Shown piece after piece: positions 38,830-62,946 of a stretch of 64,000 bases of DNA. The DNA lies in the NCBI GenBank assembly GCA_020055645.1, contig CM034546.1, positions 136,669,875 to 136,733,874 of the forward strand, in the 5' to 3' direction. Each line of letters opens with the position of its first letter. Position 1 is the stretch's first letter. The position numbers were made by a program, and so were the translations under genes. This stretch comes from Tomocerus qinae (Eukaryota; Arthropoda; Collembola; Entomobryomorpha; Tomoceridae). Below the pieces are notes generated by a model. That model did no database searches and had not been told where the DNA came from. It saw only the letters and a list, made by a program, of their open reading frames with translations.

Positions 38830-41800
38830 ATGGCGCAAGAAATAGTGAATAATTTACCTTACCTCATGGAAAGTTTAACTAATTTACCATCAGTGTTACT
38901 TCATTGCGTGCAAAATAACATCATAACAATCGACAATAAAGAACAAATTGTAAGTTTATTTCTTTAATAGTAAAATTAAACGTCTAAAACTTGTAGCCTA
39001 AGCGTTATAGAAAACCCATTGCGCACCAGGTCAGCCGGTTTTAATCGTGATTATCCTCGAAAGGATTCTACAAATTGAACAAGTGAATTGAAAATTCATT
39101 TAATTCGGTATACTTAATTTGGTTAAAAGTGTAAAATTTCATTAGTAATGTTTTATTCTTTCAAAACAGCCATCAAAAGAAATTTTTAATTTAAAACCTT
39201 TTGGCATCCCTTAAGGAACAATTTAGCCTCAATGCACTTTTCGTTTTGTGCACTAAATACCCTCAATGCATCAAACAAGAAGTGCACTAAGGCTATTTCT
39301 TACACAAAACGAAAAGTGCATTGAGGCTAAAATCGTTCCTTAAGGGACGATATTATGAACTAGTTAGGACCACACAAAGCTAGGCTTGATATTCACTCAG
39401 TGAGTATAATGACCACTGACATATACGATTGATATGTGCGACATATTTCAGATCTAACCAAATGCATGACTCGAAATTAACATAAAAACCAATACTAATA
39501 GCATTTAGTCTACTGCAGATGGCGGGTGTAACATCACAAGATCGAAACTATCGGTTTTTTGGCAATTTAATCAATAAAGACTGGGAAGAAATAAAAAGTA
39601 TTATTAAAATTTTACGGGAAACATCAAATGCACATTGCGCCGAAAAAATATTAGGTGAACGGTTATCAACCAACCAAATGCAGCCAACATATTTAAAAGG
39701 TAGTAAAATATCAAACTCGGAGAACAGGAAAACAAAAAGAATTCTTGGCTCAAAATGGTGGCCAGTAGAAAAGACTCTTCCAAAGGCGTTTCTAGAAAGA
39801 GAACAGGACGGCAACAAATTAATTGAGATTTTGAAAGACAATTTGGTGAAAAGTAAATATATGTCAACAGTTATCAACCAAGGAACATCCGTCTCCGGAA
39901 TGGGAGCCATTGGAAAGACTACGATCGCAAAATGGTTTGCTATTAATTTCAACGATTCATACGACCACATTGTTTGGATAGATTGCGGCGAGGAAAATCT
40001 TTACCCGGCTTTTGCTGAATTGGCTAAAGAGTTGAAAGTTGATACAACTTTGCGACTTCAATTATTATCAAAAAAATGCTTTTCTTTATTGGAGGCATCC
40101 AAATGTCTTTTTATTTTTGACAATGCGGAATGTTATCAAGGTAACAAAGGAGTCCGAGATGTTCTTCCCAAACATGACAATTTCCACACAATAATTACGT
40201 CGAGGACTAAAGAATGGGGAAGTGAGTCAGGGGACGGAATAATTCCACAGATGCATCTCACTGCATTTGAGAAAAGAGAAAGCCTTGAATTTCTACCTAA
40301 TAACTTGAAAGTCAAGTTATATACAAAAGATCAGTTAGAGGAATTGCGTGTACTACTTGGGGATCTTCCGTTGGCCTTGCATATAGCCGTCACAGCAATA
40401 AACATCAAAAAATTGTCTATCAAAGAATACATTCAAAGAATTAAACAAACGGGGCAAAACATCAATGCAAACTTCGATGACTACGAACGAACTATTAACA
40501 AGACAATGAAAATATCTCTGGACATCATCAAAAATCATGAAGAGGATCCCAAACAAAGAGCATACAAAATTTTACTTGTTCTAGGCTATACTAAGCCAGA
40601 TTTAGTCCCATTCCAATTATTACAACTTTCTGAAGGTTTGTCACTATATGAAGTGGAAGACGCTATGGAAATGCTTGAAAAATACTCTTTGATAACGATT
40701 GAAAAATGGGAAACGATGAATTCTTGCAGTATTCATCGATTGCTGCAACAAGTAATTCGTTACAATGACAAAGAAAATAATAAAGTAACCTTAAAAAGGA
40801 TTTTAAGTGTGGAAGGGTTTCCGGATTATAAATTACTTCCTTATTTGTATGCGGACCAAGAAATTAAAAGTCTCTTTCCAAAAGTTCAAGCTGAATTGAT
40901 TCAGCAAGATAATTTAGAAAAATTAATAGAACAAAGAAGGTTCAACGAAGCAGTCGAAATATCACGAATGATTAAAAACACCTTGAGAACTCCGATGGCT
41001 GAGTACAACTACGCAGTCTGTCTAGAGAAGATTGATGAATTGATCGAAGCTGAAATTGTTGTGAAAGCAATTTACAATTCTCTAAAGAATGATACCGCAA
41101 AATATGATAAAATTGGCGAAACTCTTGACTTTTATGCCCAATTGCGATCGGCAATAAATATGATTGAACGTTACATTAGCGTTAATGGACTTTGGAAATT
41201 ATCTCAACCGATTCAGTATCAATTGGTTAGGGGTTCGTTGTTCCTGTTGTATAGAAGGCTGGGAATGAATGACAGAGTCCACGAAATTGTAAATGAGGAT
41301 TGCCCATTGATTGTCAACAAAACACCTCAGACTTTAAACTATGTGATGCAATTTTTGAAAAGCCCCTCAATCGGCAATTACCAGTTAGAAAATGGCCTAA
41401 AAGTACTCATTGTTAAAATTGGTAGTAAATTGGGAAAGGCAATTTCTCTCATAGGATGGGATCTCAGTGAAACTTTTCCAAATGACTTAGACCAATTGAG
41501 TTTGGAGAACGTAGAGATGCTAAACGAAGAGGGACACCCTTTGAAGTACTATAATATAAGTACTACAGTACTAAACAGTCTTAAGAGTCTAAGTATAAAA
41601 TGCATCGATTCAACAAAATTTGCTATTGCAATAAATGACAATCTTCCCTGTTGCCGCTCTATAACTTTAGATAACTGTTTCATTCTACTACAAAATGGTA
41701 GACAAATATCTCCTATGGAAATTGATTTACGAAGGATCTCTTTTACACTAAATGATGATGAAGTTGCAAACATCTGCCTTAATGATTTGTTTGATTTTCA

Positions 41801-43520
41801 GCAAACAAAGAAATTGACTCTCCACGGAAGTAACACTTTCGTGAAATTAGGCGAGTCACTAAGTATCGACGAAATCTGTCTCGATATATTTAACCGTTTG
41901 GATTGGAGTGATTTTAAATGCACTGTCAAAGAGTTCAATATTAAGAATACAGTTGTGCCTATGCTGGACAAGGATACTTCATTGTGTGTGATGAAACTTC
42001 ATCTGCAAGACTGTTTTGTCCATCTGGTGACACTTTTCTTTCTATCAAAAACAATAAAAGAGATGACTCTTGATGACGTCACAATAATTGAAATCGACAA
42101 GGTTTGCGTGGAAAGAAAAATGAAAATTTGTACACCTGTCGTTATATTAAATAATATAAAACTTATTCAGGACTCCGTTGAATTAACTGAAATCATTATA
42201 AACGACATTCTGAGTTTGGAAAAAATAAAAAAGCTAACAGTAACAAATGATGAATGCACGGTGATGTATTTTGACCTAAACGAGCAAATCTCGGTAGACT
42301 GTTTGGAGTTAGCTGCCGTAGAATTAATAAATTGGGACACATCGAGAAGTGGCGTCAAAATTCTCAAATTACGTGATGTTGAAATTCAAGATATTTTGAC
42401 TTCCCATTTCAAAGTGACCGAGATGTTAGCTATTCGTAATTCTGTAATTAATGCTACATCTCTCAACAGTATTTCAGCGTTTTCCAATAATTTATTTCTG
42501 AAAGATACGTCTATTATTTTGAATTACGATTTAGATGCAAATAATACTCCACCCAAATTGCACTATCTCAACGGATTAATAAAGGAAATCAAACTCCAGG
42601 AAGTCTGTATCTTTAAAGGAGGAGACGAAGTAGATAATTTTCTAGTCAACGAATTCATAAATGTTATTCAACTAAATGTTTTGAATCTATCACCAGACGA
42701 AGAAGGAAGAAGTCGCTATGTTTTAGATTTAGAAAACTTGTCATTGTCACTCGATATTCTTTCACTGAAGAATGTCACAGTACTTAATTGGGACAAGGGA
42801 CAAGGCTTTGTCAATAAAATGAAATTGCATGGCATTTCGCTTCAAATGGAAAATAGCATAAAAATAAATTCCTTGGATTTTAGCGGATCCATTGACCTTT
42901 CTTGCTTACCCAAAAATATTCAGCGTCTTCAACTGAAGGAGGGCAGTGCTGTATCCTGTAAGAGCGAAGTCGATTTGATTAGTTTGGACTGTATAATTCT
43001 TCTCCATCAACCTTCTGAGCTCAAATATTTTACTCGTTGTCCGAATTTGACTAAAGTTGAACTACGATATTCAGAAGATGACGAACTCCTTCTAAATTTG
43101 CAATGTATGCCAAAAACTATCAAAACGATTAAACTTCATGGAGGGTATAGAAAATTCCCTCCTCCCTCACTGACTATCATTGGCACAGAAAACCGTGAAT
43201 TCAAATTGGAGACATTAATTATTCATGATTTGGTAATTTTGTCACCAATTGAATCAGCTCTAGATATTTTGAAACCTGACAATATAATTATTTCCAAGAA
43301 CATCATGTTGGTTGTCAAGGAAGAATTTGATGTTGTAATTAAATTAATGAAGACTTATAAAACGGTAGCTATTGGTCCCATGGAATGGAAAACTGATGAA
43401 CATTTTCTGAATTGTCGTTTTTCAAAATTTGTGAACCACAAAGCAGAATTTTACATTTTTGAAAACCAAAAGGGAAGAGTTTTACAGAAAATAGATTTTG
43501 TGGATTTGGTGACACTCTAA
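38830..43520 (+). CDS. CARD-NB-ARC-LRR-like receptor (NLR)
   Basis: Two exons, 38830-38949 and 39519-43520, phase 0, 1373 residues. Exon 1 (MAQEIVNNLPYLMESLTNLP, ..IITIDNKEQI) and the start of exon 2 (NLINKDWEEIKSIIKILRET, HCAEKILG) together form a six-helix CARD, about 1-90; neither exon alone does. NB-ARC follows: Walker A GMGAIGKT (167-174), HIVWIDC, Walker B LFIFDNAE with D241, sensor-like TIITSRTKEWG, GDLPLAL (321-327) and a degenerate MHD, SIHRLLQQ (H446). After a helical region comes about 700 residues of leucine-rich beta-strand repeats with an NWD-centred super-repeat near 836, 979 and 1131. The tail has KAEFYIFENQKGR. CARD-NB-ARC is the Apaf-1/CED-4 core; with a leucine-rich region it looks like a STAND immune or stress sensor acting through CARD contacts. 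The key ATPase residues are present, so it is probably functional. The C-terminal half is homologous to the F-box gene at 61293-62946. Confidence 0.9.
39207..39348. mobile_element. Foldback MITE in the NLR intron
   Basis: Arms CCCTTAAGGAACAATTTAGC... and its inverse, about 44 bp each (both contain CCTCAATGCACTTTTCGTTT), around a 50-bp centre. It sits in the intron that divides the CARD. No target duplication could be fixed. Confidence 0.8.
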
Positions 43521-44274
43521 TTTTGATTCGGGATGCTGGTGGTACTTTCGTTATATTTTGTCTGCAACATTCCAGAATTATCTAATAGAAGTTACTAAAA
43601 GGCAAAACATAATCAAGACGCTATAGAAAAGTAAGTGACTTAAGCCCATATTTTTAATAAACACTCCCACTCTAATCTCCACTCTTTGAGAGTGTAAGGT
43701 ACGTATTGAGGTACCTTTCACTCTCGAAAAAGTGCGTAAAAAGTGCGTGAGAGTCGATTCATTAAAAATATGGGCCTTAGTATCATTCATTAGTTTAGAT
43801 ATAAGGCCCATATTTTTAATGACTCGAGTCTCACTCTCACGCACTTTTTACGCACTTTTTTGAGAGTGATAGGTACCTCAGTACCTTTCACTCTCACCAA
43901 GATTAGAGTGGGAGTGTTTTATTAAAAATATGGGCCCAAAAATTCATAGTCAAAACCAATTAAATGGGTACCTTAAATTCTCTGACGAAGTGGCGAAGTT
44001 TTAATTACGAGAACTTGTCGGATTTATTACCCATGTCAGATTTTGTTTGGATATTAGATTTCGCTTTTCATCATAACTCAAATAAAATAGCTTAATCGAA
44101 TACATAGAACTGGCATTGTAAACTATAGTATCGACCGAGAACAATCATTATGTAACTTGGCATTATACTAATAAATGAAGGATACAAAAATATCACGTGC
44201 TATAAAAATATTATTTATTATTCAATATTTAAGGCATTTACGAATGTATTTACGATTTACGAACATATGAAAAC
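43521..44274. other. Intergenic after NLR gene, with inverted MITE pair
   Basis: Holds the NLR 3' flank and the palindromic element pair at 43642-43937; otherwise nothing recognised. Confidence 0.55.
43642..43937. mobile_element. Two inverted copies of a 135-bp TIR element
   Basis: Left copy 43642-43778 and right copy 43803-43937 are reverse complements of each other. Each is itself bounded by GGCCCATATTTTTAAT-type inverted ends and contains TTTTTACGCACTTTTT and GAGAGTG repeats. About 24 bp separate them, so the whole is a near-300-bp palindrome. Confidence 0.85.
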
Positions 44275-44385
44275 ATCTTGCATCTATAAGCAGTCCTCCA
44301 CTTTCCAGTCCAGTTAGTCTTTCCAGTTTTTACATTTTCTCATTTATTGCTTGAGTTGATGTTTCAATGGACTTTAAATCTGATT
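44275..44385 (-). pseudogene. Four-TM family relic G (exon 1 only)
   Basis: Reverse strand carries an exon-1-like block: ATG at 44335 followed at once by TAA, then KLERL, LESGGLLI, matching the CCGVRLETGGLII exon of genes C and E. The upstream flank CTTGAGTTGATGTTTCAATG also matches the flank of gene C (TTTGAGTTGATTTTCTAATG). No further exons. Confidence 0.7.
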
Positions 44386-44466
44386 GTATAAAAACTTAAA
44401 TTGTAAAATTGTCCATGCGTTTGCCAAAAGCTGTAATATTTGTCTCGATGTGTCCGACTGTTGTCT

Positions 44467-45637
44467 TTAATGTAAGTGTACAACAGTTGGTCTTTCAGTG
44501 ATATTATCCGTTGAATTAGACGTACTTTTAGTAATAAGGCTAATGAACAAATCATCCACTACATTTAACTTTTTTTGCAAATAGAGAATGGTGCAAGTAA
44601 AAATTACATTGATGATGACCACAACTAAGTCGACTATTTTTATCGTGACAATGGGGTTAATGATATACAAACACACTAGAAATACGATGAAAGCGATTTT
44701 GTAAAACAACCAGACCTTCAAAACAATATTTAATTTCTGGAAAAAAAACAAGACATTAAAATCAAATGCCATGCTACATACTTTGTTACCTTTTTATGCT
44801 ATCTATTTTAGATTATTACCTTACAAATGCCGAAAATCAGTAGGATAGAAGTAAATATTTGAAGTATGGCTAAGATCAAAAATGCTAAAGGGTCGGGCAA
44901 GATGTAATGCCTGTGTTCATCTGAAAGCAAACCCAAATAAAAAAATACTATCGACCATTCACAATCTTCAAAAAAATTATTTGACTACGAAATTACCTCC
45001 AACGTAAATTGGAAACTTAAATTGTGTGATTCCATTCTTATTTAGTAGCAGCACAGAGCAAAGTGATGTCCCAATAATACCTGCGATCTACAAAAACAAG
45101 TCAGAAAAATAATTACTTAATGATAGTATTCATTGTTGGTTATCATTAAAGTACGTGAAATAAACCATTTCAAAATGGAAATTGCAAAAGAGTTTAGTCT
45201 GGGCCAATGACCCTTGACCTTTACAACCCTTGACACATTCAGAAGTGTCACAAAGTTTGCCAGCTCACCGTACCAAGGCATTTCACGACTTTGTACGGTG
45301 AACAAAACTGAAGGTAGTAAATTATCAGGTTTTTTCACCCACCCCCCACTTAAGGATAATTGTACCTTTACTAGTGTCAAAAAACTTTTATGCTTTTGAA
45401 TAAAATATTACAAGACTTTGTATTATGTAAGGAATGGAAGTAGCATCGATTTTCAATTATTATTTTTTAAATATTTCACCCAAGTTAGTTTTAATTACTA
45501 AATAAATAACAAATTTTATTTTTCTTAGCTTTTTTTATTTTAGTTTTTATTTTTTATAAACTTACAGCGTCCAGAAATCCAATGAGTAATCCGATGGATT
45601 TGAGCTTGAAACTGCAACAACGTCCTGAGTTTTGCAT
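44467..45637 (-). CDS. Four-TM family protein F (divergent)
   Basis: Exons 45566-45637, 44997-45087, 44820-44920 and 44467-44736; 177 residues, with the family's 72-bp first exon and 0/1/0 phase pattern. Exon 1: MQNSGRCCSFKLKSIGLLIG; exon 2 IAGIIGTSLCSVLLLL with a shortened loop; exon 3 LAILQIFTSILLIFGIC; exon 4 FYKIAFIVFLVCLYII and IVDLVVVIINVIFTCTIL. The tail is Ser/Thr-rich (STSNSTDNITERPT) and lacks the LPTY motif of the other members. It lies beyond the NLR gene, separated from the main cluster, and converges on it tail to tail. Probably an older paralogue. Confidence 0.72.
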
Positions 45638-46039
45638 TTCATACGAATTTATTTTCCAATCAACTATGACATGACAATGTCAGAATGTCTAATTCCACAG
45701 TAAATATTGCAATGGAATGTTGTACTTACTTACTTACTTGTAAGGCATATTGTTTGTGTATATAATAATGATAATTGTAGTTAATAAAAATGCAAGTTTT
45801 AATTTAGTGAGTGACCTAATAAAAATGGGTGCGAATACTGTAAATAAGCTACTAAATTGAGACTTTATAAGGGAAAATCCACCATCCGCTACCAAACCAC
45901 TTATTGAGAAAAGCCAAGATGAAGCGAGCCTACTCAATTTAACCTTTCATATTATTCATCACCATGAAATACACATTTCACCCAACAGCTTATAACGACC
46001 AAAATATATGAATAATTGAAATCGGTCATTTTAAATTTT
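45638..46039. other. Intergenic between gene F and satellite
   Basis: Gene F upstream DNA, with a short (TTAC)n run near 45725-45738. No gene seen. Confidence 0.5.
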
Positions 46040-47230
46040 GATATTCATCTCTACGGGGTAAAAGAATATGGCTAATTCAAATATGGACACCGCTATAGTG
46101 TGAAACTAATACCCCGCTATATGGGGGATTACCCCCATATCCGGGGAATGTAAATATTGGATTTGGATGTTGAAATTCATCCCTACGGGGTAAAAGAATA
46201 TGGCGAATTCAAATATGGACACCGCTATAGTGTGAAACTAATACCCCGCTATATGGGGGATTACCCCCATATCGGGGTAATGTAAATATTGGATTTGGAT
46301 GTTGAAATTCATCCCTACGGGGTAAAAGATAATGGCGAATTTAAATATGGACACCGCTATACTGTGAAAATATTACCCCGCTATATAGGGAGTTTACCCC
46401 CATATCGGGGAAATGTAAATACTAGATTTGGATGTTGAAATTCATTCCTACGGGGTAAAAGAATATGGCGAATTCAAATATGGACACCGCTATAGTGTGA
46501 AACTAATACCCCGCTATATGGGGGATTACCCCCATATTGGGGTAATGTAAACATTGGATTTGGAAGTTGAAATTCATCCCTACGGGGTAAAAGATAATGG
46601 CGAATTTAAATATGGACACCGCTATACTGTGAAAATATTACCCCGCTATATAGGGAGTTTACCCCCATATCGGGGAAATGTAAACACTGGATTTGGATGT
46701 TGAAATTCATTCCTACAGGGTAAAAAAGAATATGGCGAATTCAAATATGGACACCGCTATAGTGTGAAACTAATACCCCGCTATATGGGGATTACCCCCA
46801 CATCGGGGTAATGTAAAAATATTGGATTTGGATGTTGAAATTCATCCCTATGGGGTAAAAGAATATGGCGAATTCAAATATGGACACCGCTATATAGTGA
46901 AAATATTACCCCGCTATATAGGGGGTTTACCCCCATATCGGGGAAATGTAAATACTAGATTTGGATGTTGAAATTCATTCCTACGGGGTAAAAGAATATG
47001 GCGAATTCAAATATGGACACCGCTATAGTGTGAAACTAATACCCCGCTATATGGGGGATTACCCCCATATCGGGGTAATGTAAATATTGGATTTGGATGT
47101 TGAAATTCATCCCTACGGGGTAAAAGAATATGGCGAATTTAAATATGAACTACGCTATAGTGTGAAAATAATACCCCGCTATGTAGGGGGTTTACCCCCA
47201 TATCGGGAGAATGTAAATATTGGATAGGAT
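46040..47230 (+). repeat. 132-133 bp satellite array, forward half
   Basis: Nine head-to-tail copies. The marker TGAAATTCAT lies at 46171, 46303, 46436, 46568, 46701, 46836, 46969 and 47101, a period of 132-135 bp. Each unit contains TACGGGGTAAAAG, ATATGGACACCGCTATA and a long dyad CCCCGCTATATGGGGG/att/ACCCCCATATCGGGG. Confidence 0.95.
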
Positions 47231-48105
47231 ATAGCGGGGTAATATTTTCACACTATAGCGGTGTCCACAATTAAATTCGCCGTATTCTTTCACCCCGTAG
47301 GGATGAATTTCAACATCCAAATCCAATATTTACATTTACCCATTATGGGGGTAAACCCCTTATATAACGGGGTTTTATTTTCACACTATAGCGGTGTCTA
47401 TATTTAAATTCGCCGTATTCTTTTACCCCGTAGGAATGAATTTCAACATCGAATTCCAATATTTACATTTCCGCGATATGGGGGTAAACCCCCAATATAG
47501 CGGGGTAATATTTTCACACTATAGCGGTGTCCATAATTAAATTCGCCGTATTCTTTTACCCAGTAGGGATGAATTTCAACATCCAAATCCAATATTTACA
47601 TTTACCCAATATGGGGGTAAACCCCTTATATAACGGGGTTTTATTTTCACACTATAGCGGTGTCTATATTTAAATTTGCCGTATTTTTTTACCCCGTAGG
47701 GATTAATTTCAACAACCAAATCCAATATTTACATTTCTCAAATATGGGGTAAACCCCTATATAGTGGGGTATTATTTTCACACTATAGCGGTGTCCATAT
47801 TTGAATTCGCCATATTCTTTTACCCCATAGGGATGAATTTCAACATCGAAATCCAATATTTACATTTCCCCGATATGGGGGTAAACCCCCTATATAGCGG
47901 TAATATTTTCACACCATAGCAGTGTCCATATTTAAATTCGCCGTATTCTTTTACCCCATAGGGATTAATTTCAACATCCAAATCCAATATTTACATTTCC
48001 CCAATATGGGGGTAAGCTCCCTATATAGCGGGGTAATATTTTCACTATATAGCGGTGTCCATATTTAAATTCGCCATATTCTTTAACCCGTAGGGATGAG
48101 TACCA
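47231..48105 (-). repeat. 132-133 bp satellite array, inverted half
   Basis: The same unit in the opposite orientation, six to seven copies, with ATGAATTTCA-type markers near 47303, 47436, 47569, 47702, 47833 and 47964. The switch is at about 47225-47232, inside the hairpin part of the unit. Copies are more diverged than in the forward half, and the last is cut off near 48100. Confidence 0.95.
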
Positions 48106-48837
48106 ATTTTAATTCTGACATTTTCAAAGTTTCTATCTGCTAAGTGTGTAACATGACCAGGTGTCCTTTTTGTGGAATTCGGGTGATTCGTGTCGTTGAG
48201 GGGATTTAGTAATACTGACTGTCTATCTGGAATGCTTTTATTTGATATGCTCATTAAAAATCGAAGGAATGACATAAAAAATTCGAATTTTTTTTTAAAA
48301 GGTAGAGAATGTTTCAGGCTTTTTTTTGATAAGGCTAACTCATTTAAAATAAATTTAGCCAATGGTTTAAATTCCTGTAGAAGGTCACAATTGTCTCACT
48401 CTAGGAAAAACCAAGGAAGATAGATGTAAATAAAAGTAGTTGTCGAATAGGGTTTCACATACTTGGCTAGCGATATAAATATAAGACTTTGATAGAACCA
48501 AAACAAGGGAGAAGGAGAAAAGTAGGTATAAGTAAGCACAGAGCACGAGAATAAGCTTAGTGCAGCACAAACATAGATTACTAAGAAACATAGGCACATG
48601 AAGTACGGCTTACGTATTATTCATGAGTTACATTCTACCCCATACTGCTCTTAGTTCTTACTACCTACTGCAAAATATTTATTAAAATATCGGACTACCA
48701 TATTTATTGGGAATTCCTGTCATGTCTGTCCGTCCGTCTGATCCAACACTGGTGAATGAAGACAACAATGAAGAACGGCACAAAACAGGTGCGTATTCCA
48801 TTGCTTGTAATGTATATACTACACACAGTGTTCGGTG

Positions 48838-51524: not shown

Positions 51525-54500
51525 ATGAAACTAAAATGCATCCTTTGGGTAATCTGCATCGGATGTCATGTCAGCACCACTTCAAGGTAATTGTAATACT
51601 ATATTTTTCCATGGTCAAGACATAATAGTATTTGATTGAGGCTAAATGGTTCGAAGGGATACTATGATTCATAGAAAGCTTGCGCAGGAAACCTGATCCC
51701 GATTTAGTCAATCCTAATATTATTCAGTCCTTAATCCTAAATTTAGTTTTGCTTAAATTCATCGGTACAAGGAGATAATAACAAATCATGTAGTAATTTT
51801 TGGTATTTTCCGAAATTATACACAATTTGCCATCTAATGCACATTTAAATTGTTATACTAGTTTGATAGTAAGTGGAAACCAGATTCTTAAAGCCATTGG
51901 TCAACTTCGTGATCAAATAAGCGAAGTAGCTCTAAATGTAAATAGCATGGAGGCAAAGTTCAGAAGTCTGGAATCGAAAATAGAAGAAAAAGATGCTACC
52001 AAGACGACCAGCCAGGAAGAAAGGTTGGATACAATAGAAAACGTGCTTTTGAATTTGGAAGGAAAAATGGGACACATTGAAAATTTGAAAAGATATATCA
52101 GCGACATTGATGATAAGATAGGAAGGGTGGAAACAAAGATGGCTAATATTGAAGGGAATGTTGAACGAATAGAAATTAATAACGAAGCTGATACTAAAAG
52201 TGTCGAGTCAAGTCTTTTGGATATAAATACCAAATTGGGAACTATGGAATCGAAACTTGAAAGTATAGAATCGAAAGCAGCAATCATAAGTACGAGGACA
52301 AGTAATGTGGAAGAAAAACTTGGACAAATGGAACCAAATATTGGAAAATTGAGTATGCAAATAGAAAACTTGGATGGTAAAATTGGAATCTGGGATACAA
52401 ATGTGAGGTACATTATAACCAAAGTAGAGAACGTGGACACTGAAATAAAAAGTATTGCATTAAAACTTGGAAGCATGGAATCCCACGTCTTAAGCTTGAA
52501 ACCAAATAATACATATGAAAGGAGCAACCTTGAAGAAATATTGGAAAGTGCGAACATAAAAATGGAAGGCATTGGACATAAAGTAGCAGAAATATATACT
52601 AAGGCCAGCTATACGGAAGAAAAGATAAGAAACTTAGAACCAGCACTTGCGAGTTGGAAAGAAGAGTTGCAAAACAATATTTCATATTTCAAACCAAAGA
52701 TGGAAAGCTTGCAAGTATACATTGGGGACATTTTTGATTCTAGTATTGAAAAAATAGCAAGCAATACGAAAACTGAAATTGACCGCATTGAAACAACAGT
52801 AAGCAAATATTTTTGAGTTGAAGTAAGGCAGAGGTTGCACAAAATACCTATCAATGTCATCGTTTAATTAGGTCCCTCGAAAGCGGTTCGTGGTATACCG
52901 TGTATTTTATGGCGCCATTTTTAAATTGTGTAACCTCTGTCTTACTTCAACCACTTTTTGCATATAGACGCAGTGGAATTTACTAAATCCATGCTTATAA
53001 AACTTTACAGTTATATACTTTTACTGCTACAAACTGTTCTGAAAAGGAATTTCAAGAAACAACTACAGAGCTAGAAGAGCAAATAAACGTTTCACACACT
53101 TCATCTACATCGGAACCTGTTTTTGGGGTAAATCAATTTATTTTGAATTGTTAGATAATTTACTATCTTAACGTGCGTTGTTAGCTACTACTAAGCAACA
53201 AGCGGAATTCCTTCTAAGTACGAATTTTCTACAAGAATAAGAACGAACGTAGTCAGAGCAGAAATAGTGCGTTGTTTGAGCGGGAAATGAGATAATGTAC
53301 CTATGATAAGAAAGAAAATTCACGTGACTTTTTACTTGAAATTCAAATTTTATTTTTCGGCCATTTCGGTCATAACTCTAAAACGGGTACACTGAAAAAT
53401 TTTCGGTTTTTTCCTAAAGATCTATCTCATTTTCTGCTTAGACTTGTCGTCCCGACTTTTCCATAATACCTTCTAATTGCCCTATCATTCAAGTCTAAAG
53501 AAAACCCGCCAAAAAATGAAAAAGAACAATTTTTTAAATCGGTGGTGTGACCTTTATAGGTCAAAATTGTAAAATATACCATGAAAAGTCCGAACTGGTT
53601 AACATATCTTCATTACAAGGCCTCATACGTCCAAATTGACCCTAAATTGTGGGAGTTATTCACGAAACAATGGTGTGGGAAAATACATGTAAAAGGAACC
53701 ACTAACGACGCACGTTAAGATTAACCATTAAAAATATTCAATCGAAAAATTATTAATTCGTTTATTCCTAATATTAATTTATTTTATTTGTGGCTATAGC
53801 CGCCTCTTCCAAAGTCTATGAATCTTGATCTTGATGGTAATAAAAGCTAATTGTCATAGTAAATTAATAAAATTACTTAAATTTAAATGTAGTTATTATT
53901 TTCAATGTAACTGATGAATTTAATTGAATGAAAGTATATAGAATAAGAATACTGGTTCTTTTATTTATTTACGATAATATGATGTCTGGTTGTTTTCAGT
54001 AAAATCAGCATTCAGTATATCATGCCATGAAATTCGCTATGAATTAAATACTTATGAAAGTGGAGTATATAAAATTTTTCCATTCTGCAATGAAACTTTT
54101 ATTGGAAGATCAAAAAATGTCTACTGCGATATGGAGTCTTATGGTGGAGGCTGGACGGTTTTCCAACAACGGGGAATACCCAGCAATCTGACAGAAACTG
54201 ATCGTTCTGAATTGTTCAACAAAACTTGGGATGAATACAAAAACGGATTTGGTGACCCGAATAACGACTATTGGCTTGGTAAATATCTCTTTTATTATAG
54301 TTGTCAGTTTTAGGGATTTTGGAGAGAGAACCGCTTAGAAATACATCAAATGAAATTTCAGAAAGGGTATCTTGGTATACCGAGCAGCACCCCGAATTAT
54401 ATTGTAAAAGTGGAAACCAGTAGAAATAAATTAGGGTGCTGAATTGCTAAGCTTACATTACTCTAATGCAATGTGGTGTAAGATATTAATTAGATATTAT

Positions 54501-56099
54501 AGAAATTGGTCTGGAAAGGCTACCAAAGTTAAGTTACAATAAGCTAGTTTACTATAAAACTCTGGGAAGTGCAAGTATCAAAATCAAAGTTGGGTAGATA
54601 GAATAAAGCTATTGACTGGTTTAGGAGAATGGTGAACTTAGCTTACGAGCTGTTGAAAGGTATTGTGACCGGTTCTAACAGACTGTCTGTTTGTCTGTCT
54701 GTCTGACTGTAATAGACAAAATTTGCTTTGGTATTATAGATATAGGTATAATTAACAGAGATATTTCTCATTAATTTTTAACAACCTTTTCTAGGTCTGG
54801 ATACAATTTATCAACTGACTAAAGATTGTAACCATGAAATGGTTGTCACGGTAACACATCTAAACGGAACCCTTTACCAAGCACACTACTCAACATTCAG
54901 CGTGTCCTCAGAGGAGGATAAATTCAAATTAAAAGTTGATAACTACATCAGAGAAAACTCCAGTTAGTCCCTCAACCATAATAACATTTCAAACATAACC
55001 AATTAATTAGAAACTAATTGGTGTATGAAACTATATGTTCATTTAAATTGTATTATGCACTGATTTCAGCGATGGCGGATACTTTAGTTTGGATCAGCGG
55101 AAACAGTTTTTCTACAATCGATAGGGACAATACTCCTAATAACAGGGCGTGCTCGGAAAATTTTAATGCCAATGGTTTTTGGTTCACCCAACACTGTATT
55201 GTGGTAAGAATTATTGCCTAAAAATTCTATTAGTCATTTTAAGACAGTCTCGGCTAAATTTCGGAATGGTGAAAGATTGTTTGACTTTTTGTGTATGGTC
55301 TCTATACAAAAGGACTAATCTGACTGGCTTAAGATCTAATGAACGGAGTTGGGTTTTTGCAAAATGCATACAAGTGCAATAGTTGGTTGGGTTGTGCTGT
55401 GCGCAAATGGCAAAGTCCCACAGCATGACTATATCTAACCTAACCTTTTGCGCGCCGTTTGCTGCAACCCGTTAGTTAGTTACACTTATATAGGGCAACC
55501 CATAAATCATAGACCCCAGTTAGAAACTGTTGCACCTGTCTGCATCAACAAATTATTCAGAAAAGTTCATCTTATCTGTGTACGAATACTATTTCCGTCT
55601 GTCCGTCCGGAAATCCCTGTGTCGTGTCCCATAAGTTTCAAACGGTTTGAGCTAGTCTGCACAAATTGTCAGGGTACAATCCTAATCTTAAGGTAAAAAT
55701 AAAGACCAAGTTCGTAAATGGGCAAGATCGGCCACACCCCTTGACTGTGGTAGGGTTCAAAAATAAAAAATATCTAAAAATTGACATAACTTGGGTTCTA
55801 TTCATCATACAAAGTCGTGCAAATCTAGAATGAAATCATGTCCACGGACACTACTAAATAGATTACAACCATCCCCTGAAAGGGGAAGTGGGTGAAAATT
55901 AAAAATATGAACTCCTCTGCCATTTTATTTTCATTCTGTAATGGTTTATTTTTTATAGGTCAATCTTAATGGAATGTACCCAAGTAGTGACCACCCTGAA
56001 ACAGCGTCAGTATTTACTGATTGGGGAATAGTTTGGCATAATATTAATTCTAAATTGAAACTAAAGAGAACTGAGATGAAAATTCGTCCGAATTGTTGA
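51525..56099 (+). CDS. Coiled-coil fibrinogen-related (FReD) secreted lectin
   Basis: Eight exons: 51525-51586, 51862-52798, 53011-53127, 53800-53836 (37-bp microexon), 54000-54278, 54795-54962, 55070-55203 and 55959-56099; all phases close, giving 624 residues. Exon 1 is a signal peptide ([18 protein letters not shown]). Exon 2 is about 312 residues of heptad-like coiled coil built from repeats such as [15 protein letters not shown] and [14 protein letters not shown]. Exon 3 is a Thr/Ser/Glu-rich linker. The C-terminal fibrinogen domain shows [50 protein letters not shown] and VNLNGMY, with the expected cysteines. FReD proteins of arthropods bind acetylated sugars and act in self/non-self recognition or clotting; the coiled coil would drive multimers. 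A 558-bp foldback element lies in the intron before the microexon. Confidence 0.9.
53164..53721. mobile_element. TIR element in FReD intron 3
   Basis: 558 bp with inverted ends ATCTTAACGTGCGTTGTTAG (53164-53183) and ACTAACGACGCACGTTAAGA (53701-53720), one mismatch in the core. No open frame; target duplication unclear. Confidence 0.75.
54640..54720. repeat. (GTCT)n microsatellite in FReD intron 5
   Basis: GACTGTCTGTTTGTCTGTCT at about 54682 within a short dispersed-repeat-like patch. A similar tract (CCGTCTGTCCGTCCGGAA) lies at about 55598 in intron 7. Confidence 0.6.
55204..55958. other. FReD intron 7 with dispersed-repeat remnant
   Basis: The 755-bp intron between the last two exons. 55560-55900 is GC-richer and carries the GTCCGTCC tract and GGGGAAGTGGGTGAAAATTA-type sequence, consistent with an old transposon fragment. 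Frames inside it are not genes. Confidence 0.45.
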
Positions 56100-56420
56100 T
56101 ATATCGTCTTGCTATTAAATAAATCTTTGGGCATGTATTTTCTGCAATAAATACCATATTCTCAATGAACAAAACAGCCACTACTGAATATTATTTTATA
56201 AAACGCATAAAACTATTATCATAATTGACAATTATCTGGCATAATGTCTGACTATCAATATATGTAAAATCCCAAGGTCATAAAGAGAGGTGTATAGTCC
56301 TTTATTTACCATTCTCAAAAAACGTAAAACTGCAGAACTTTTAAATAAAAATAATTTTATACGTCAGAATTGAGTAGAATTTATTAAAATCTATAGCTTA
56401 GAGTTAGTAAATGACAAGAA

Positions 56421-57284
56421 TTAGACGATTTTAATTTCAGAACAGCTTCTAAATGTTTGTTGCTCGGAGCATCCCATACCACCGGGTGGGTCACCACTGT
56501 TGTAGTTGCAATCACAGGTGCGGGAGAGGTCACAAGTTCCCCAGTTCTGGGCTCCACGGTAGTGGGCACGAAGGGTGCAACTTTCACAAGTAACACCATC
56601 GGGCAGTTTGGCTGTGGTTTCAACATTGAAGGTGCCATCGGCCAATGTCATGGGCCAAAATGTGTCTCCATTTCCCAACACGAGTTTCCGGAAACATCCT
56701 TCAGTCTCAACGGCATCGGTGCAGAGGGAGATCTCAAATCCACCTCCATGGTTTTGAGTATTCGATTGCAAATGAATTGGGATTGTCTGCAATAAATACA
56801 TGGTAAAATTAATTTTCGGTGACGTTTAAATCCCAGAGATTGTATTTTCCCCGGTATCATGATTTTGTTTTCCTTTTTTAATTTTCTTTCTCTGCCAATT
56901 AGCAAAAATGCCATCCTGGTAGATATTTTACAAGCTACCATGATATAATGCACAATCTATTTATCTCAGTTATTGTTTTTGAGTTACCTGTCCAGCAGAA
57001 TAGGTTCTGACTCTGACATCGCGCCAGTAGCGTCCTCCTCGTTCAGCTTCTCGTGGCTGTGCCATGTCAATGGGGTCTCCGCAGATGCCACATCGACCGT
57101 CATGTTCAAACTGGTGGACATTTCCGCACCAAAACTCATCATCATTGGCCTTAGTTTCAGGGTTGTATTGTGCGAATTCTGGATAACGCCACAGACAGGC
57201 TCGGCATGGTGGTTCAATCATTCGGACATGACCCACCACGGCACACACGCCCACGGCGAATAGTAACAAAATTTGTTTCTGCAT
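56421..57284 (-). CDS. Lytic polysaccharide monooxygenase, AA15 family
   Basis: Exons 56988-57284 and 56421-56786, phase 0, 220 residues. The signal peptide (1-18, MQKQILLLFAVGVCAVVG) is followed directly by H19 in HVRMIEPPCRACLWR, so cleavage would expose the N-terminal His of the copper brace. The second brace His is H112 in NTQNHGGGFEI. An aromatic residue in AHYRGAQNWGTC fits the axial position. Many cysteines (FWCGN, CGICGDP, CTDAVETEGC, CESCTL, CDLSRTCDCNY) match the disulfide-rich secreted AA15 enzymes, known in arthropods and active on chitin or cellulose. All catalytic residues I can check are present. Tail to tail with the FReD gene (321 bp apart) and downstream of a GH99/71-like gene on the same strand, suggesting a polysaccharide-handling pair. 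Confidence 0.92.
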
Positions 57285-57332
57285 GGTGAAAAGGAACTGG
57301 AAGGAATAATCAGCGAGGAGACTAGTACACCG

Positions 57333-57339
57333 TTTTATA
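57333..57339 (-). promoter_or_regulatory. TATA box of the AA15 gene
   Basis: TATAAAA on the - strand, 49-55 bp upstream of the ATG at 57284, leaving room for a short 5' UTR. Positioned as expected for a core promoter; not otherwise supported. Confidence 0.45.
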
Positions 57340-58526
57340 GGTTCTTCAAACAGTTTTAAGTTGATTAAAATTCCATTTAATGATGTATCTCGTGATTTGA
57401 GTAGTTACTTATCATAACAAACAAACGATACCAAAACATTTTGCTTAATGATTGGCTTGATTGGTCGATTGGATTATTATGCAATTCTCTCGATAAGTGC
57501 TCAGAAGCAGTATTAATTAATTCGATATTATGGTATTAGCTGGATTTAATTACAAACATGATTGATTAGTGTTAAATGATGCAGCCACTTCAAGTATTAA
57601 TAAGTTACAATTTATAAAAAGACGCCCATCAGGGTTGTCATGTTGAAGAATGATTAATTGCACTTGTTTTCTCATTAAAGTTGATCTCTTCCAAATTGAT
57701 AAAATGCTAAAGCCTTCAATAACATCGAAAAGGGTAATTAACATAGGTAGTTACTCTTGTCCAGTACAATTAGGTCCGTAAATAAAGATTTCGGTTACAA
57801 GGCAAATCAAGTATGCCTATTATTCCTAAAGCATTTATAACCCTACTTGTTTGATATCAGGCCAGGCCTTAATAGAAGACTTATTTATGTAACACGAATT
57901 ATTGTATGAAGTAAAAAAAGCACGGGAAAGTTTAAAATTGATGTTGGGACTGTTAAGAGTTAAAAGTATAATATAATGTAGATTTTTGAAGAATTGTACG
58001 AATTGTACGGATATTAAAATTAGCATTGCAGTATTGAACAAAGTCATGACAATCCAAATTGCTTTAAAAAATTGGTACACAAATACCTTATAACCGCTTG
58101 GTGCAACTTATTTCCTACAATGTATCACCGTAAATTTTTTAATTGTAGGGTCTATAATTCTAAAACATGCTGGGGTGGGGTCAGGGTCAAATAGGGAAGA
58201 CTTTTGTATTGTATGTGTTGGCCTCTAATAGTGCTAATATGGTAAAGTTTTAAGTAGTGCTTACTGAGGACTTACGGCAGTATTATGCAAATGTAATGTG
58301 CATGCCAAAAATATTTATGTACTATTTGTTTTTGGATTGCATATTGATCTTATCTGATTTGATTGAATTATTATTTTACGTTGATATCAAAGAGACTTTC
58401 CTAATAATAAAACACCGTATAAATAGAGCGACACAAAAATAGTTTATTTTTCTACTTACAAAACCTGTTTAATAATTACAAGGTAAAATAATGATTTGAA
58501 TCAAAGATAAGTGGATGATTCAATAC
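57340..58526. other. Intergenic between LPMO and hydrolase
   Basis: No gene supported. An 81-codon hydrophobic frame on the - strand (57835-58080, FKAIWIVMTLFNTAMLILIS) could be a stray membrane exon but lacks partners. Includes the 3' flank of the GH gene. Confidence 0.45.
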
Positions 58527-60050
58527 TTAAGGGACCATTTTCAAAAATTCTTCAGCCTTCTTTGGTTCCAGATTTTTCAAAGCCTCGCTAGCTTGATCAA
58601 GAATGGAAAGAATATTGGTTTTTCCTACATTTGCTTGTCTCTTAACGTAGACTTCTTTGATTAAATCAAGTTCCCAGTTGCCATACGGGACTCCCAAAGT
58701 ATTTTGCAGTACATTAAGGAATCCATTGCCAAATTCCTTGGTTGGCTCAATCATAGTACCTTTTAGTAATTAAAATTGTTAACACATAAATCTTTTGAAT
58801 TGTAACATAATAATTAAAATTGCGACTTACCTTCTCCATAGTCATTCCACGTGGCAGCTTGAATCCATTGAACCTCGTCAAATTGGAGGGCCATGTTGAG
58901 AGTGTCTTGAAATGTTTTTGTGCCTTCGTGTTGGATGATCCATCCTGGATGACCTGGCCATCCTCCTTGTTGGTAGAAATCATGGAATCCTGGATAAGCT
59001 ACTCCAAACTTTACTTGCAGACCTTCCCGGTATCTGTAGAAGTTTTCTAATCCAAGCATGAAATTGACGTAGATCCAGGGATATTCTCCAACAGCACTAA
59101 AACAGTTTTTCAATTTAGGATTAGAAATACTTTACAAATCAGAATTCTGGAAAATTAGCTTTACCTTCCTGCAGTTTGTTCATACTGATTCCAAAGAGTG
59201 AGGAAAGTTGGTTTTGGACTAAGTGGTGTAAAAATTGCGGGCCAATCTGAATCTCTGAGTGTTTGTGGTCCAAAGGTCATCAGTAATGGGGCTCCGTTGA
59301 TGTGGACGTAATTATTCATTCGGAAATAATTATTTTGCAGCCATTCCATGTCTTGTCTGCCTTGGGCAATAACATCCGTGATGAAACCCGCATCGCGTGC
59401 CATACCTACCCGAATCATAATAGATACAAAAATTAGAGTAGTTCGGATTAAACTGGATAATTTTAAAATCTAAAAATGCTTAAAATGTAATGCAACGCCC
59501 ACCTAAATTATGATCTTCATAAACGATAGCGAATTCCATATCGTAACTCCACAATTTTTGGATGAATCTATCTGCATTTTGCATGTTCTTCGGGTAGTCC
59601 CAAGCGATAGTTGTCCCTGGCCAGTCCATTAGTACTCCATCGACTCCTGCGTATTTCATCATTTGTATTTGGTAGTCGATGAGTGCCTCACTTCCCGAAC
59701 CATAAGGTCCAATGTCTGGATAGTAGTGGGCAGCAATTTGGCGTTTGCCATCGACGATAATATCCGGATCCATTCTTGCCATTGTCCAGTGCTGACCCCA
59801 ATTACCTTAATGCACAAAATCCTCTATTAATACCATGGAGACATAAATTATAAAATTCTGAATAATTAAAAACGAACCAACCATCTTCACTTGTTTCCTT
59901 TGATTCAAACCACGGCATTAAATGGATGTACATCTTTTTGTTAATCAATTTTGGCACGAATTTCATTCCGGTAGCATTTTTTGATATAGTGAATGCAGAT
60001 GTGGCAATTGCCAAAGTTGACAATGCCAACAACACTTTTATTGCACCCAT
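58527..60050 (-). CDS. Secreted glycoside hydrolase, GH99/GH71-like
   Basis: Five exons, 59882-60050, 59503-59805, 59165-59405, 58831-59096 and 58527-58759, phases 1/1/2/1, 403 residues. A signal peptide (MGAIKVLLALSTLAIATSA) precedes a (beta/alpha)8-type catalytic domain: MYIHLMPWFESKE, NWGQHW, AHYYPDIGPYGS, YAGVDGVLMDWPGT, FAIVYEDHNLG, YVHINGAPLLMTFGP, GYPGFHDFY-type (VAYPGFHDFYQQGG) and AATWNDYGEG. This order is that of the GH99/GH71-like superfamily (endo-alpha-mannosidase and alpha-1,3-glucanase relatives). Candidate acidic residues are those in MDWPG and WNDYGEG. Substrate not determinable; fungal or plant polysaccharide digestion is an inference, supported by the AA15 gene next to it. 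No defect seen. Confidence 0.85.
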
Positions 60051-61292
60051 TGTTTATTTAGATGTTTCTGGTTTCGGTGACAGGAAAGAAATAACAGAAA
60101 TGAATAGGTAACTTCGCTTTTTGTAATGCTTTTTGCTTAATCTGCTTGGTGCTTGTCACAAGGAGGTATGACAAAATAATCATGCAATTAATTAATCATT
60201 TATCAAATTGTCACTTCAATCCAGTTTCAATATGAGTTGGCCGCTTTTTGCATTTTCATATCTGAATAAATCATAAGTTATTAAGTTTACAATGATCAAC
60301 TTCTGAGCATATTCAGTATAGGTATACACAGTTAATTGATTTTGATGGATGAATTTAATGATAATGCGAGAAGAGAACAAACAACATTTATTCACATGGG
60401 ACAGATATTAATTTAGTGTGTGGTCGTTGTAATTCAAATTATTTTCCTTGGTCGTCCTTCGAATGAAAAGTGATTTATTTATAATATTATCAAAACTGCT
60501 TCATGTTGTATGTTACCAGTCAGCGTTTGAGCATGCAGTAAAATCTGTTGTGGTACAAAAGCAAGCTTTTACCAAAACACACAATGTATATGAAACCTTA
60601 TGTTTTATTATACAATACAGCCAATTCATCTTAAACACTTCAGCTACCTATTCTACATTGCACTGCACTCATGAAATTGTAAATGTGATACTATGCATAA
60701 CTACTTTCCTATTTCTGGAATTGGAATGGTTATTAGAATAATTATAAAGTCCTAAAAATTTCAACCTTAAAATCATTCATACTGAACAGTGAGATTTTAT
60801 CTGTAGATTGCTTATTTATTGTCAATCTAATTTGCTTTTATAACAGTATACGATTTTTTAGCAATTATTATAAGACAATACAATTATTTACTTATTATTT
60901 TCTCAGTTAGTAGCAATCATAAAATAAATACTAAGTATCACTACAAACAAAATACTACATCTACGTTTACCATGAAAATTTCTGTTTCGTTCACTAACCA
61001 TAAGTCACTAACCATAAATATTATTGGTGCATATTTAAATTATTATCAGACGTGCTGACAAATAGATAGTAAGCTAACAATCAAGAAAATCGGTCAAAGT
61101 AAATAATATCATATAGATTATAATAAATAATAATTAATTAATAATAATAAATTAGAAGGGAATACATAACCTAACTCTACTTTTGAAACCTAAATGTTAT
61201 GGCATTCTTGTAGAAAGCGTAGCTTAACCATTTATATTTCTATAGTGAGGTAATATTGTATACAATGCATGTTTCTTTGCTGACAATTATTT
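60051..61292. other. Intergenic between hydrolase and F-box gene
   Basis: AT-rich, including 61100-61160 (TAATAAATAATAATTAATTA). A 97-codon + frame at 60448-60741 has no recognisable domain. It must contain the GH promoter and the F-box 3' UTR. Confidence 0.5.
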
Positions 61293-62946
61293 TTAAAGTA
61301 TACTGAAAGGATTAGGACGAACCATTAGGGTAATTCTTTTATCAGCTACTGGTGGGCTGCATGGAATTCCTCTGCCGTTTTCAAAAGCGTAGAAGTCCGC
61401 CTTTTCGTCAACCACTTTGGACAGAGGAGAGTGCTGAACAGATGTAGCATTTTTATCCCACCTGAACTTTCCCAGGGTCATTCGTTGGGTAGGATGGCTT
61501 TGTATAAATTCCACTAAATTGTTAATCACGTCAGACTTGTAGAAGTTCGACGCGATTATATGCTTTGGTTTTAAACTATTTAGAACCTCTTCCAAACATT
61601 TTACAAAGTCGAGGTTGCAGGAATTAAAAGATACAACGTCAACGCCCGATTCTTTTTCACCGATTATTTTCACATCCTGTTGCATTTTGATTTCCTTTAC
61701 GCCAGTTGGTAAACAATTTGCATCAACAATTGCTCCCAAATTGCATTTCAATTCCACATATTTTAGCTTTGGTAGGTCAACTGGAAATGTGCCTGTGTTC
61801 TTAAAACATTTGAAATGACTACAGTACAAGTTTTCCATTGCCAATGGAAGAAACGAAACATCGATTTCCGAAGGAGAGGATATAAAATTTTTGATTTTTA
61901 AATTCCTTACGCTGTGATCGATTGTAAACATTGCATTCTTAATTGTCCACCTTGAATTTTCCAGGTTTTTCATATTCTTGGTGGAATAAATGTCAAGTTG
62001 GTTCAAAGATATGTCTTCTTGACTCATGTCCAGCTTGTACATCAGTCCAAATATCGCTAACTTTTCAATTCTTTTGAAATTTATATACTTGTTTACCAGA
62101 CTTTCTTCTTCTTCATTTCCATTCACGACAAACTTTACATTTTCTAGAGAAATTTCTTTTGGTGATATTTTTTGTCCACTGTAGATTACCTTACAATCCT
62201 TTAACCTGACGATGTCAACAGTAGAAAGCTTATCCATCGAAAAGGTTACTACAGGGTGACCTTTAAAAGTACGGATGGTCAATTTCTTTAGCGATGGGGA
62301 AATTAGTGGACTTATATCCCACTCTTTCAATTTATTTTTTCCTTCGTCAACAAAAATAGGCCAATCCATTTTTAACTCCCTGATAAACCTTCCCAATCCG
62401 TTGCTAAAGAATTCAGTCAACACCAACGTTGTCCACGGAATGGGACCAACGAATGACGCGGCTGTGAATGGAATGTTAGAGTCCGACATCAGCCATTTGA
62501 AAAATGAATTGATATCTGCAGGAACTTCTCTAGTCGTGGATCCGTCCTCATTCTCTTTGTAAACAACATTTTCACTCCCATCGACCAGAACCAATTTTTG
62601 ACGTACAGAAATGAAGTTGACTTTCGCTTTCGCTCTGAAGGATATTTGGGATGCCTTTTCAAAATCCCAGCAAACCATTCGAAAATTTTTCATATCGGTA
62701 ACACTAAGGAATTTGCAAATTTTGCGAAGGATCTATGGACATAAAATCAAAACGTTAAGTAATAACAAAGTTCTATTAAGACACCATATAACAGCTTTGG
62801 TATTTATTTCCCCGTGATTGTTTCTTTATAATTAGAAATAATCAAAAATACTATACCAAATCATTTGCAAAAAGCTTTTCTGCATAATTTGCATTGTTAC
62901 TAATTTCTCCGTCCTCATCCCCGGTTGAACTTTTCTGGATATCCAT
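61293..62946 (-). CDS. F-box protein with NLR-like leucine-rich C-terminal region
   Basis: Exons 62857-62946 and 61293-62732, phase 0, 509 residues. The F-box is completed only by splicing: EKLFANDL from exon 1 joins ILRKICKFLSVTDMKNFRMV, then CWDFEKAS (about 22-60). F-box proteins are substrate adaptors of SCF ubiquitin ligases, binding Skp1 through this motif. The remaining 440 residues are leucine-rich beta repeats. They match the CARD-NB-ARC gene at 38830-43520: CKVIYSGQKISPKEISL against CFILLQNGRQISPMEIDL; LKYVELK..CLP against LTKVELR..CMP; LKPKHII against LKPDNII; and the tail KADFYAFENGRG against KAEFYIFENQKGR. So this is the same putative recognition region on a different output domain. 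Ligand unknown. Intact frame. Confidence 0.82.

Follow-up and report, generated by a model that had tools for sequence, protein, structure and literature searches.

Does one recognition region sit on two different kinds of output protein in this springtail genome, and if so, how widely and by what history? The question arises from a 64 kb stretch of Tomocerus qinae DNA (G000:C1:136669875-136733874; "the window" below means this whole stretch), which encodes, ~18 kb apart, a predicted nucleotide-binding leucine-rich repeat receptor (NLR) with CARD and NB-ARC domains and a predicted F-box protein. The original prediction for this locus proposed that domain shuffling had placed one ligand-sensing, leucine-rich C-terminal region on an ATPase and on a ubiquitin-ligase adaptor, which could form a linked system. 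Sequence comparison shows that the C-terminal halves of the two proteins are homologous, and searches of the window's own genome (334,443,149 bases, 115 contigs) show one homologous region, resembling leucine-rich repeats (LRRs), on predicted NB-ARC ATPases and predicted F-box adaptors as a feature of two gene families and not of one gene pair. That part of the proposal stands, and stands family-wide; the single ligand is conjecture, and the linked system is unsupported.

The peptides quoted at the outset as common to the NLR and the F-box protein are present where they had been placed, in identical order. Their span had been put at 350-400 residues in both proteins; they in fact extend over ~600 residues of the NLR and ~280 of the F-box protein, a difference due to the ~290 residues by which the window-type NLR exceeds the F-box module (41715-42581 in the profile alignment). 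Smith-Waterman alignment of the two C-terminal regions gave a score of 167. Plain shuffles (500) had a mean of 44.8 and a maximum of 70, and the reversed sequence scored 59. Shuffles that keep the hydrophobic pattern reached at most 88 with the F-box side shuffled (1000 shuffles) and 112 with the NLR side shuffled (500), and permutations of 11-aa blocks (300) reached 85. The N part alone (F-box residues 135-305 against NLR residues 689-852) scored 133 with 46 of 161 positions identical (pattern-shuffle maxima 89 and 99), and the C part alone (351-485 against 1215-1359) scored 107 with 37 of 132 identical (72 and 86). Searching the 1445 open reading frames (ORFs) of the window with the F-box protein using phmmer retrieved the NLR at 2.9e-14, and single-sequence hhalign comparisons between the two proteins gave 3.9e-9 and 2.4e-6. 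The profile-profile comparison that had been suggested as a check bears this out: a profile of 16 F-box members aligned with a profile of 20 NLR members along 426 columns that begin directly after the F-box and stop shortly before the C-terminus, with an E-value of 1.8e-63. Identity between the two classes in the module is roughly 20-35%.

We asked how this similarity compares with that of any two leucine-rich proteins. Some results point towards such a generic resemblance. Once its last ~50 residues are removed, the C part gives a weak score of 63, which was reached in 3 of the 1000 pattern shuffles and in 2 of the 300 block permutations and which lies below the maximum of the NLR-side shuffles (74); LxxLxL motifs are not denser than chance; and one ordinary LRR ORF scores as high as 82 with the window NLR region. 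Against this, the window F-box region, which scores 167 with the window NLR and 243-345 with seven other NLRs, scores only 41-62 with six ordinary LRR ORFs of the same genome, contradicting the idea that the alignment is no better than between random LRR proteins. Reciprocally, the window NLR region scored 51-82 with those six ordinary ORFs and 220-275 with six other F-box proteins. At the profile level, the F-box profile matched the ordinary LRR ORFs at 0.0017-0.028 and seven single NLRs at 1.7e-34 to 1.5e-45. The LRR_8 model has at least 167 matches across the genome (150 of 585 candidates scored), and all of the 143 that were checked are more than 3 kb away from every listed module locus. 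Shuffles, profile-profile E-value, ordinary-LRR controls and LRR_8 locations all contradict generic similarity, to which we give almost no credence and which we reject.

The gene models of the two window genes were predicted from sequence, without transcripts. Each has a single phase 0 intron: the NLR gene model is 38830-38949 joined to 39519-43520 on the forward strand (1373 aa), and the F-box gene model is 62946-62857 joined to 62732-61293 on the reverse strand (509 aa). Their features are as follows.

38830..38949, forward strand: NLR exon 1, residues 1-40, first half of the predicted CARD; ATG start, phase-0 donor GTAAGT at 38950.
39519..43520, forward strand: NLR exon 2, residues 41-1373 and stop; open frame of 1333 codons; acceptor CTACTGCAG/ATGGCG.
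39825..40520, forward strand: NB-ARC domain, residues 143-374; Pfam PF00931 at 1.2e-8, 35 bits, cut-off 23.5.
40806..41378, forward strand: helical linker resembling TPR, residues ~470-660; the window protein itself matches ANAPC3 weakly (0.096).
41463..43475, forward strand: shared LRR-like module of the NLR, residues 689-1359.
41463-41954 and 43041-43475, forward strand: N part and C part of the NLR module, with ~290 extra residues between them.
62857..62946, reverse strand: F-box gene exon 1, residues 1-30; ATG at 62946, donor GTATAG.
61293..62732, reverse strand: F-box gene exon 2, residues 31-509 and stop; open frame, acceptor CATAG/ATCC.
62655..62859, reverse strand: F-box motif, residues 30-56, interrupted by the intron 62733-62856.
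61368..62420, reverse strand: shared LRR-like module of the F-box protein, residues 135-485.
61908-62420 and 61368-61772, reverse strand: N part and C part of the F-box protein module, by sequence alignment.

Exon 2 of the NLR gene encodes, in order, the second half of the CARD, the NB-ARC domain with a P-loop read as GMGAIGKT, DUF7779 (Pfam 6e-4), TPR-like helices and the LRR-like module. No WD40 match to Pfam was found; the TPR-like region and the module stand in that place. The sole intron of each gene model lies inside the CARD (NLR) or at the start of the F-box, and six more F-box frames (loci L004, L029, L030, L032, L055 and L056) open at the column of the window's exon 2. The proposal had invoked domain shuffling; because the module junction is intron-free in both window gene models, exon shuffling of the classical kind is unsupported.

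The module occupies the C-terminal half of both families and is ~300-430 residues long. In most members read it closes with a tail of roughly V-D-x-K-A-D/E-x-Y-x-x-E/D-x-x-x-G, which L002, L003 and L027 lack. The extra residues of the window-type NLR comprise three copies of a ~100-residue unit, one copy of which was found in the F-box protein. Each of the four units beat all 1000 pattern shuffles with leave-one-out profiles, the only form that counts here, as the full profile includes its own members. Whether the module deserves the LRR label depends on which proteins are consulted. In the two window proteins, LxxLxL density and periodicity do not exceed those of shuffles, which speaks against the label; LRR matches are weak in both, none in the NLR passes the Pfam cut-off, and a sequence search of solved structures gave nothing below E 0.3 for either protein or for their alignment. 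Relatives speak for it. The F-box member L004 passes LRR_8 (31 bits, cut-off 27) and its PDB matches are mostly LRR proteins (best 0.0021); at E ≤ 0.01, LRR_8 is found in two and LRR_4 in three of the 16 F-box members, and FNIP repeats in seven of the 20 NLR members. We label the shared region a divergent LRR module, judged mainly from these relatives; the original label is unsupported by motif counts or periodicity in the window proteins and depends on their kin. A prokaryotic or viral origin of the module gained no support: scans of viral contigs found no relatives, nor did one scan of prokaryotic genome contigs with the module alignment, using two peptide patterns.

Both window genes belong to large families. 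All counts given here are lower bounds from this one genome, with E ≤ 1e-3 for matches of the F-box protein. We found at least 95 matches to the F-box protein (89 of 503 candidates scored), at least 82 to the NLR module (61 of 584) and at least 104 to a query made of half the CARD and the NB-ARC domain (90 of 332). The merged module lists hold at least 132 distinct loci, fragments included. An NB-ARC match lies just upstream on the same strand in 58 of the 132; among the loci without such a linked match, 48 have frames of up to 600 aa and 26 have longer frames. We fetched 12 of those 26, and all 12 contained an NB-ARC match, three in part only. NB-ARC matches were likewise present in all 20 long-frame loci fetched whole (partial in L009, L012 and L018; spread across more than one frame in L016 and L028) and in seven of seven further N-terminal stretches. 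A fixed-pattern scan of 15 of the 20 paralogues found Walker A in 14, a Walker B-like motif in 11 and an HRLLQQV-type motif in 15. On the other side, an F-box is present in 16 of the 17 short-frame loci whose N-terminus was read, the exception being L045/L053; Pfam detects it at E ≤ 0.01 in 11 of the 16, with the other five judged by alignment, and it passes the Pfam cut-off (20.5) in L033 (30.7 bits) and L057 (21.9 bits). The main open frames measure ~440-590 codons for the F-box proteins and ~850-1520 for the CARD-NB-ARC-TPR-LRR proteins. L045/L053 itself is a 496-aa module frame with neither F-box nor NB-ARC, and its LRR region groups with NLRs of the cluster described below (100/99).

By these sequence matches the NLR architecture is CARD-NB-ARC-TPR-LRR, with a different N-terminus in two members. 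The second half of the CARD was found in 12 and the first half in six of the 20 NLR loci, and the second half in six of seven further N-terminal stretches; in the window-type subfamily, both halves are present in L064 and the second half in L062 and L063. TPR_19 matches at E ≤ 0.01 in seven of the 20 NLR members, the window NLR not among them. Several domain scores weigh against the assigned layouts. The CARD of the window NLR (Pfam residues 8-84 of the spliced protein, 5.4e-5) reaches 23.6 bits against a cut-off of 23.9, and the F-box of the window F-box protein (0.0098 on the spliced protein) 16.2 bits against 20.5; Pfam detects NB-ARC at E ≤ 0.01 in only 14 of the 20 NLR members, the window NLR included. 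Genome-wide, only three segments match the CARD model at E ≤ 0.001; two of them, which pass the cut-off (32.9 and 29.2 bits), neighbour NB-ARC genes outside the module lists. The low genome-wide CARD yield may arise because an intron splits the domain.

The two members with the different N-terminus, L014 and L047, have in common ~300 residues without a Pfam name (87 of 274 positions identical; score 271, whereas shuffles reach 58 at most), and this domain has seven matches in the genome, the query included (eight of eight candidates scored). We observed such an unnamed domain, which includes a glycine-rich hydrophobic stretch, in place of the CARD on NB-ARC-TPR-LRR proteins at L014 (first 385 residues of the frame) and L058 (first 345). 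A further pair of near-identical neighbours, L009:637-3237 and L018:599-3178, combines an N-terminal hydrophobic segment with a partial NB-ARC match and the LRR module; these are possibly membrane-attached or decayed receptors.

The NB-ARC core had been described as that of Apaf-1 and CED-4, and our searches point elsewhere. Searched against PDB, a profile of seven NB-ARC stretches retrieved plant NLRs (Roq1 at 4.5e-7, ADR2, MLA13) and AfsR of bacteria; chains of Apaf-1, CED-4 or Dark were absent at E ≤ 1 in this crude comparison, which is confined to solved structures. The NCBIfam model FxSxx_TPR, for bacterial NB-ARC-TPR proteins, matches window NLR residues 140-456 at 3.9e-36 with a score of 124.9, far under its cut-off of 300. 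The NB-ARC profile also found 40 bacterial or archaeal genome loci at 24-32% identity. By the searches made, the core appears closer to plant NLRs and bacterial NB-ARC-TPR proteins than to Apaf-1. Kinship with the Apaf-1 family may nonetheless exist, because some Apaf-1 homologues have TPR repeats in place of WD40 (PMC2246300). The core may descend from an old animal lineage or have come by horizontal transfer. Two relatives of the NB-ARC query at 27-30% identity (L066 and L070) lie in metagenome bins assigned to Rickettsiales.

We examined recent change in 13 NLRs of a cluster at C1:28-38 Mb (78 pairs), taken from the 20 whole-fetched loci, with L012 and L016 of the cluster left out. The median dN, dS and dN/dS (nonsynonymous and synonymous divergence and their ratio) were 0.190, 0.901 and 0.203 for the NB-ARC region and 0.148, 0.168 and 0.886 for the LRR region; the TPR region had a median dN of 0.154 and dS of 0.593. 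Over the last ~320 codons dS was 0.121 against 0.901 for NB-ARC, seven-fold lower, and it was the lower of the two in all 78 pairs. Mantel tests correlated NB-ARC with TPR distances (r 0.47 and 0.51, P 0.016 and 0.0025), whereas LRR distances correlated with neither (r -0.04 and 0.06 for NB-ARC against LRR). Median identity was 0.84-0.90 across the last ~1.1 kb of coding sequence and ~0.67 and less past the stop codon; in upstream windows it ranged over 0.56-0.88. The LRR-coding end thus appears homogenised between cluster loci, consistent with gene conversion, while its protein sequence is weakly constrained, as that of a recognition region would be. Two results tell against this. Topology tests of LRR exchange with the approximately unbiased (AU) test were not significant (p 0.0701, 0.214 and 0.44 for NB-ARC groups on LRR data); they covered four of the eight supported NB-ARC groups, two of the four being both sides of one branch, and the TPR control gave p 0.447 and 0.0971, with one NB-ARC group already present. 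In the window subfamily (four genes, six pairs) there is no homogenisation, dS being high or saturated in both regions; dN of the LRR end is there about twice that of NB-ARC.

How often, then, did the module move between the two kinds of gene? In module trees the F-box and NLR labels cluster, the deep branches are unsure, and two to four label changes are needed. The later trees omit 10 of the 20 whole-fetched NLR loci (nine to thin the cluster or its likes, and L027 for its absent tail), and L036 is in no tree, as its fetched stretch stops before the tail. The label changes, together with the apparent mobility of the LRR end between NLR loci, would suit recurrent swapping of the module between F-box and NB-ARC genes. 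A strong AU rejection of a single F-box group (p 0.0019 and 0.00017) seemed to agree. That rejection hinged on L045, which had been labelled F-box by frame length and whose N-terminus proved to be without an F-box; we withdrew it because of this mislabelling. One F-box group is not rejected with L045 relabelled (p 0.434; 15 F-box and 22 NLR rows) or left out (p 0.347; 12 and 19 rows); the p 0.00017 and p 0.347 tests omit six long-branch rows (L014, L030, L031, L033, L047 and L052). A single ancient exchange suffices to explain the tree as it stands, and we regard repeated swapping as improbable.

The explanation that we favour, and consider probable though well short of certain, is that both families are intracellular recognition proteins built on one LRR scaffold, with at least one old exchange followed by expansion. 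One or more exchanges of the module between an F-box gene and an NB-ARC gene would lie far back, before either family expanded. For the NLRs, we propose that the LRR/TPR end holds the NB-ARC switch inactive until a target binds; once freed, the ATPase would oligomerise, and the assembled CARDs would recruit CARD or caspase partners. We counted 38 caspase-domain segments in the genome (54 of 54 candidates scored). In the F-box proteins, a like surface would hold a target for ubiquitination by the SCF complex. Identity between the classes is as low as stated above and the module evolves quickly, so that a single ligand is no more likely than different ones. We think it most likely that each family recognises targets other than those of its counterpart, and that these targets change rapidly, whether they are foreign or host proteins. 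Common targets, or an immune role of either family, are conjectural. A different relation could hold if the NLR LRR end mimics the F-box LRR surface, so that a pathogen factor aimed at SCF adaptors triggers the NLR. Such a decoy or guard is a live rival because the LRR of the pepper NLR Tsw resembles those of F-box hormone receptors and detects a viral effector. The pairing of an NLR with an LRR F-box protein recurs here with homology at sequence level, the window-type NLR has a larger LRR region than the F-box protein, as the Tsw LRR is said to be more than double the usual size (PMC10442019), and besides the closeness of the window genes, L002 lies ~8.5 kb from an NB-ARC match. Yet we found no NLR closely copying a given F-box protein at the between-class identity seen, and proximity is not convincing in general: of 34 short-frame loci on C1, five have a listed NB-ARC match within 50 kb, where 1.78 would be expected, and two of these, next to or within NLR clusters, may be receptor fragments. 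We consider a decoy arrangement quite unlikely. The same counts, which do not place F-box-type loci clearly nearer to NLRs than chance, lend no support to the linked NLR/F-box system of the original prediction.

The last contender differs from the recognition scaffold that we favour only by denying a common recognition role. In that account an ancient LRR domain would have become attached to an F-box and, separately, to an NB-ARC protein, one time each, and the two families would have followed unconnected roles from then on; the F-box proteins might serve in proteostasis or development, for example. The tree, which does not reject one F-box group, and the low identity between classes fit it, and nothing ties the families functionally; no result speaks directly against it. 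We hold it unlikely, if a little less so than the decoy. A bolder extension of the favoured scaffold reading is doubtful but worth stating: a plant-like springtail arsenal of about a hundred CARD-NB-ARC-TPR-LRR loci whose LRR cassette is common with an SCF F-box family and still exchanged between receptors, so that cell death and degradation would read one repertoire and some receptors would be F-box decoys.

Other features of the window were noted in passing. The sole intron of the NLR gene model holds a MITE-like (miniature inverted-repeat transposable element) palindrome at 39222-39331, with 49-nt arms, 88% complementary, spaced by 12 nt. A satellite with a unit of ~132 bases occupies 46038-48099 in two adjoining arrays (46038-47225 and 47229-48099), which appear head to head, the second consensus being by eye the reverse complement of the first. 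Between the NLR and F-box genes lie a coiled-coil frame (51797-52816) and then a frame with a fibrinogen C-terminal domain (53978-54313, 2.5e-16), perhaps a single fibrinogen-related lectin-like gene. This fibrinogen domain, the CARD and the caspases mark the DNA as that of an animal. On the reverse strand, 58527-60053 carries GH99-like glycoside hydrolase frames (one frame at 1.4e-4, below cut-off), and the frame 56970-57404 is a candidate for a lytic polysaccharide monooxygenase (LPMO).

How do these families compare with known systems? LRR-type F-box proteins, the FBXL class of SCF adaptors, have a short F-box followed by a leucine-rich C-terminal half, as the window F-box family does; the latter differs in its divergent repeats, its few Pfam LRR matches and a module common with NLRs. 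Bacterial NB-ARC-TPR proteins (FxSxx_TPR; AfsR) likewise place NB-ARC before TPR, as the window NLRs do, and contribute no relative of the module in the one scan with two peptide patterns. In the literature we found no description of an LRR module common to NLRs and F-box proteins, which does not imply that none exists, and nothing joining Collembola and NB-ARC. In the available portion of its main text, one springtail genome paper (PMC5490193) has no 'leucine-rich', 'LRR', 'apopto' or 'NACHT', and the available portion of another (PMC5644144) no 'leucine-rich', 'F-box' or 'apopto'; an excerpt of PMC10432511 lists the LRR domain superfamily among the significantly expanded families of another springtail.

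Animal CARD-NACHT-LRR receptors and the Apaf-1 family (CARD-NB-ARC-WD40) likewise combine a CARD, a STAND NTPase and a C-terminal repeat sensor. The window NLRs differ from them in having NB-ARC and not NACHT, and a TPR and LRR-like module and not WD40. Rearrangement of the domains of CARD/STAND-type receptors is described in amphioxus (PMC11508797, PMC2246300, PMC2575513). A 2024 survey describes arthropod NLRs as having no N-terminal effector domain (PMC11508797); the window NLRs differ from these by their predicted CARD, and a large CARD-NB-ARC-TPR-LRR family in an arthropod would alter that picture.

The closest parallel to the two families together is a plant receptor. As set out in a commentary (PMC10442019), the LRR of the pepper NLR Tsw resembles the LRRs of the F-box hormone receptors COI1, TIR1 and MAX2, which lets Tsw detect a viral effector. 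Tsw is like the window family in that an NLR LRR resembles that of SCF F-box proteins and is enlarged. There the organism is a plant, comparison of structures revealed a likeness of which sequence search had given no sign, and the effector is known; the window families are animal, and their likeness is sequence homology between two multigene families, known here from sequence alone. A sensor common with F-box proteins would parallel the Tsw case in animals, at the sequence level and at the scale of families, and suggests that animals, like one plant receptor, can use one recognition scaffold for cell-death receptors and for the ubiquitin system.

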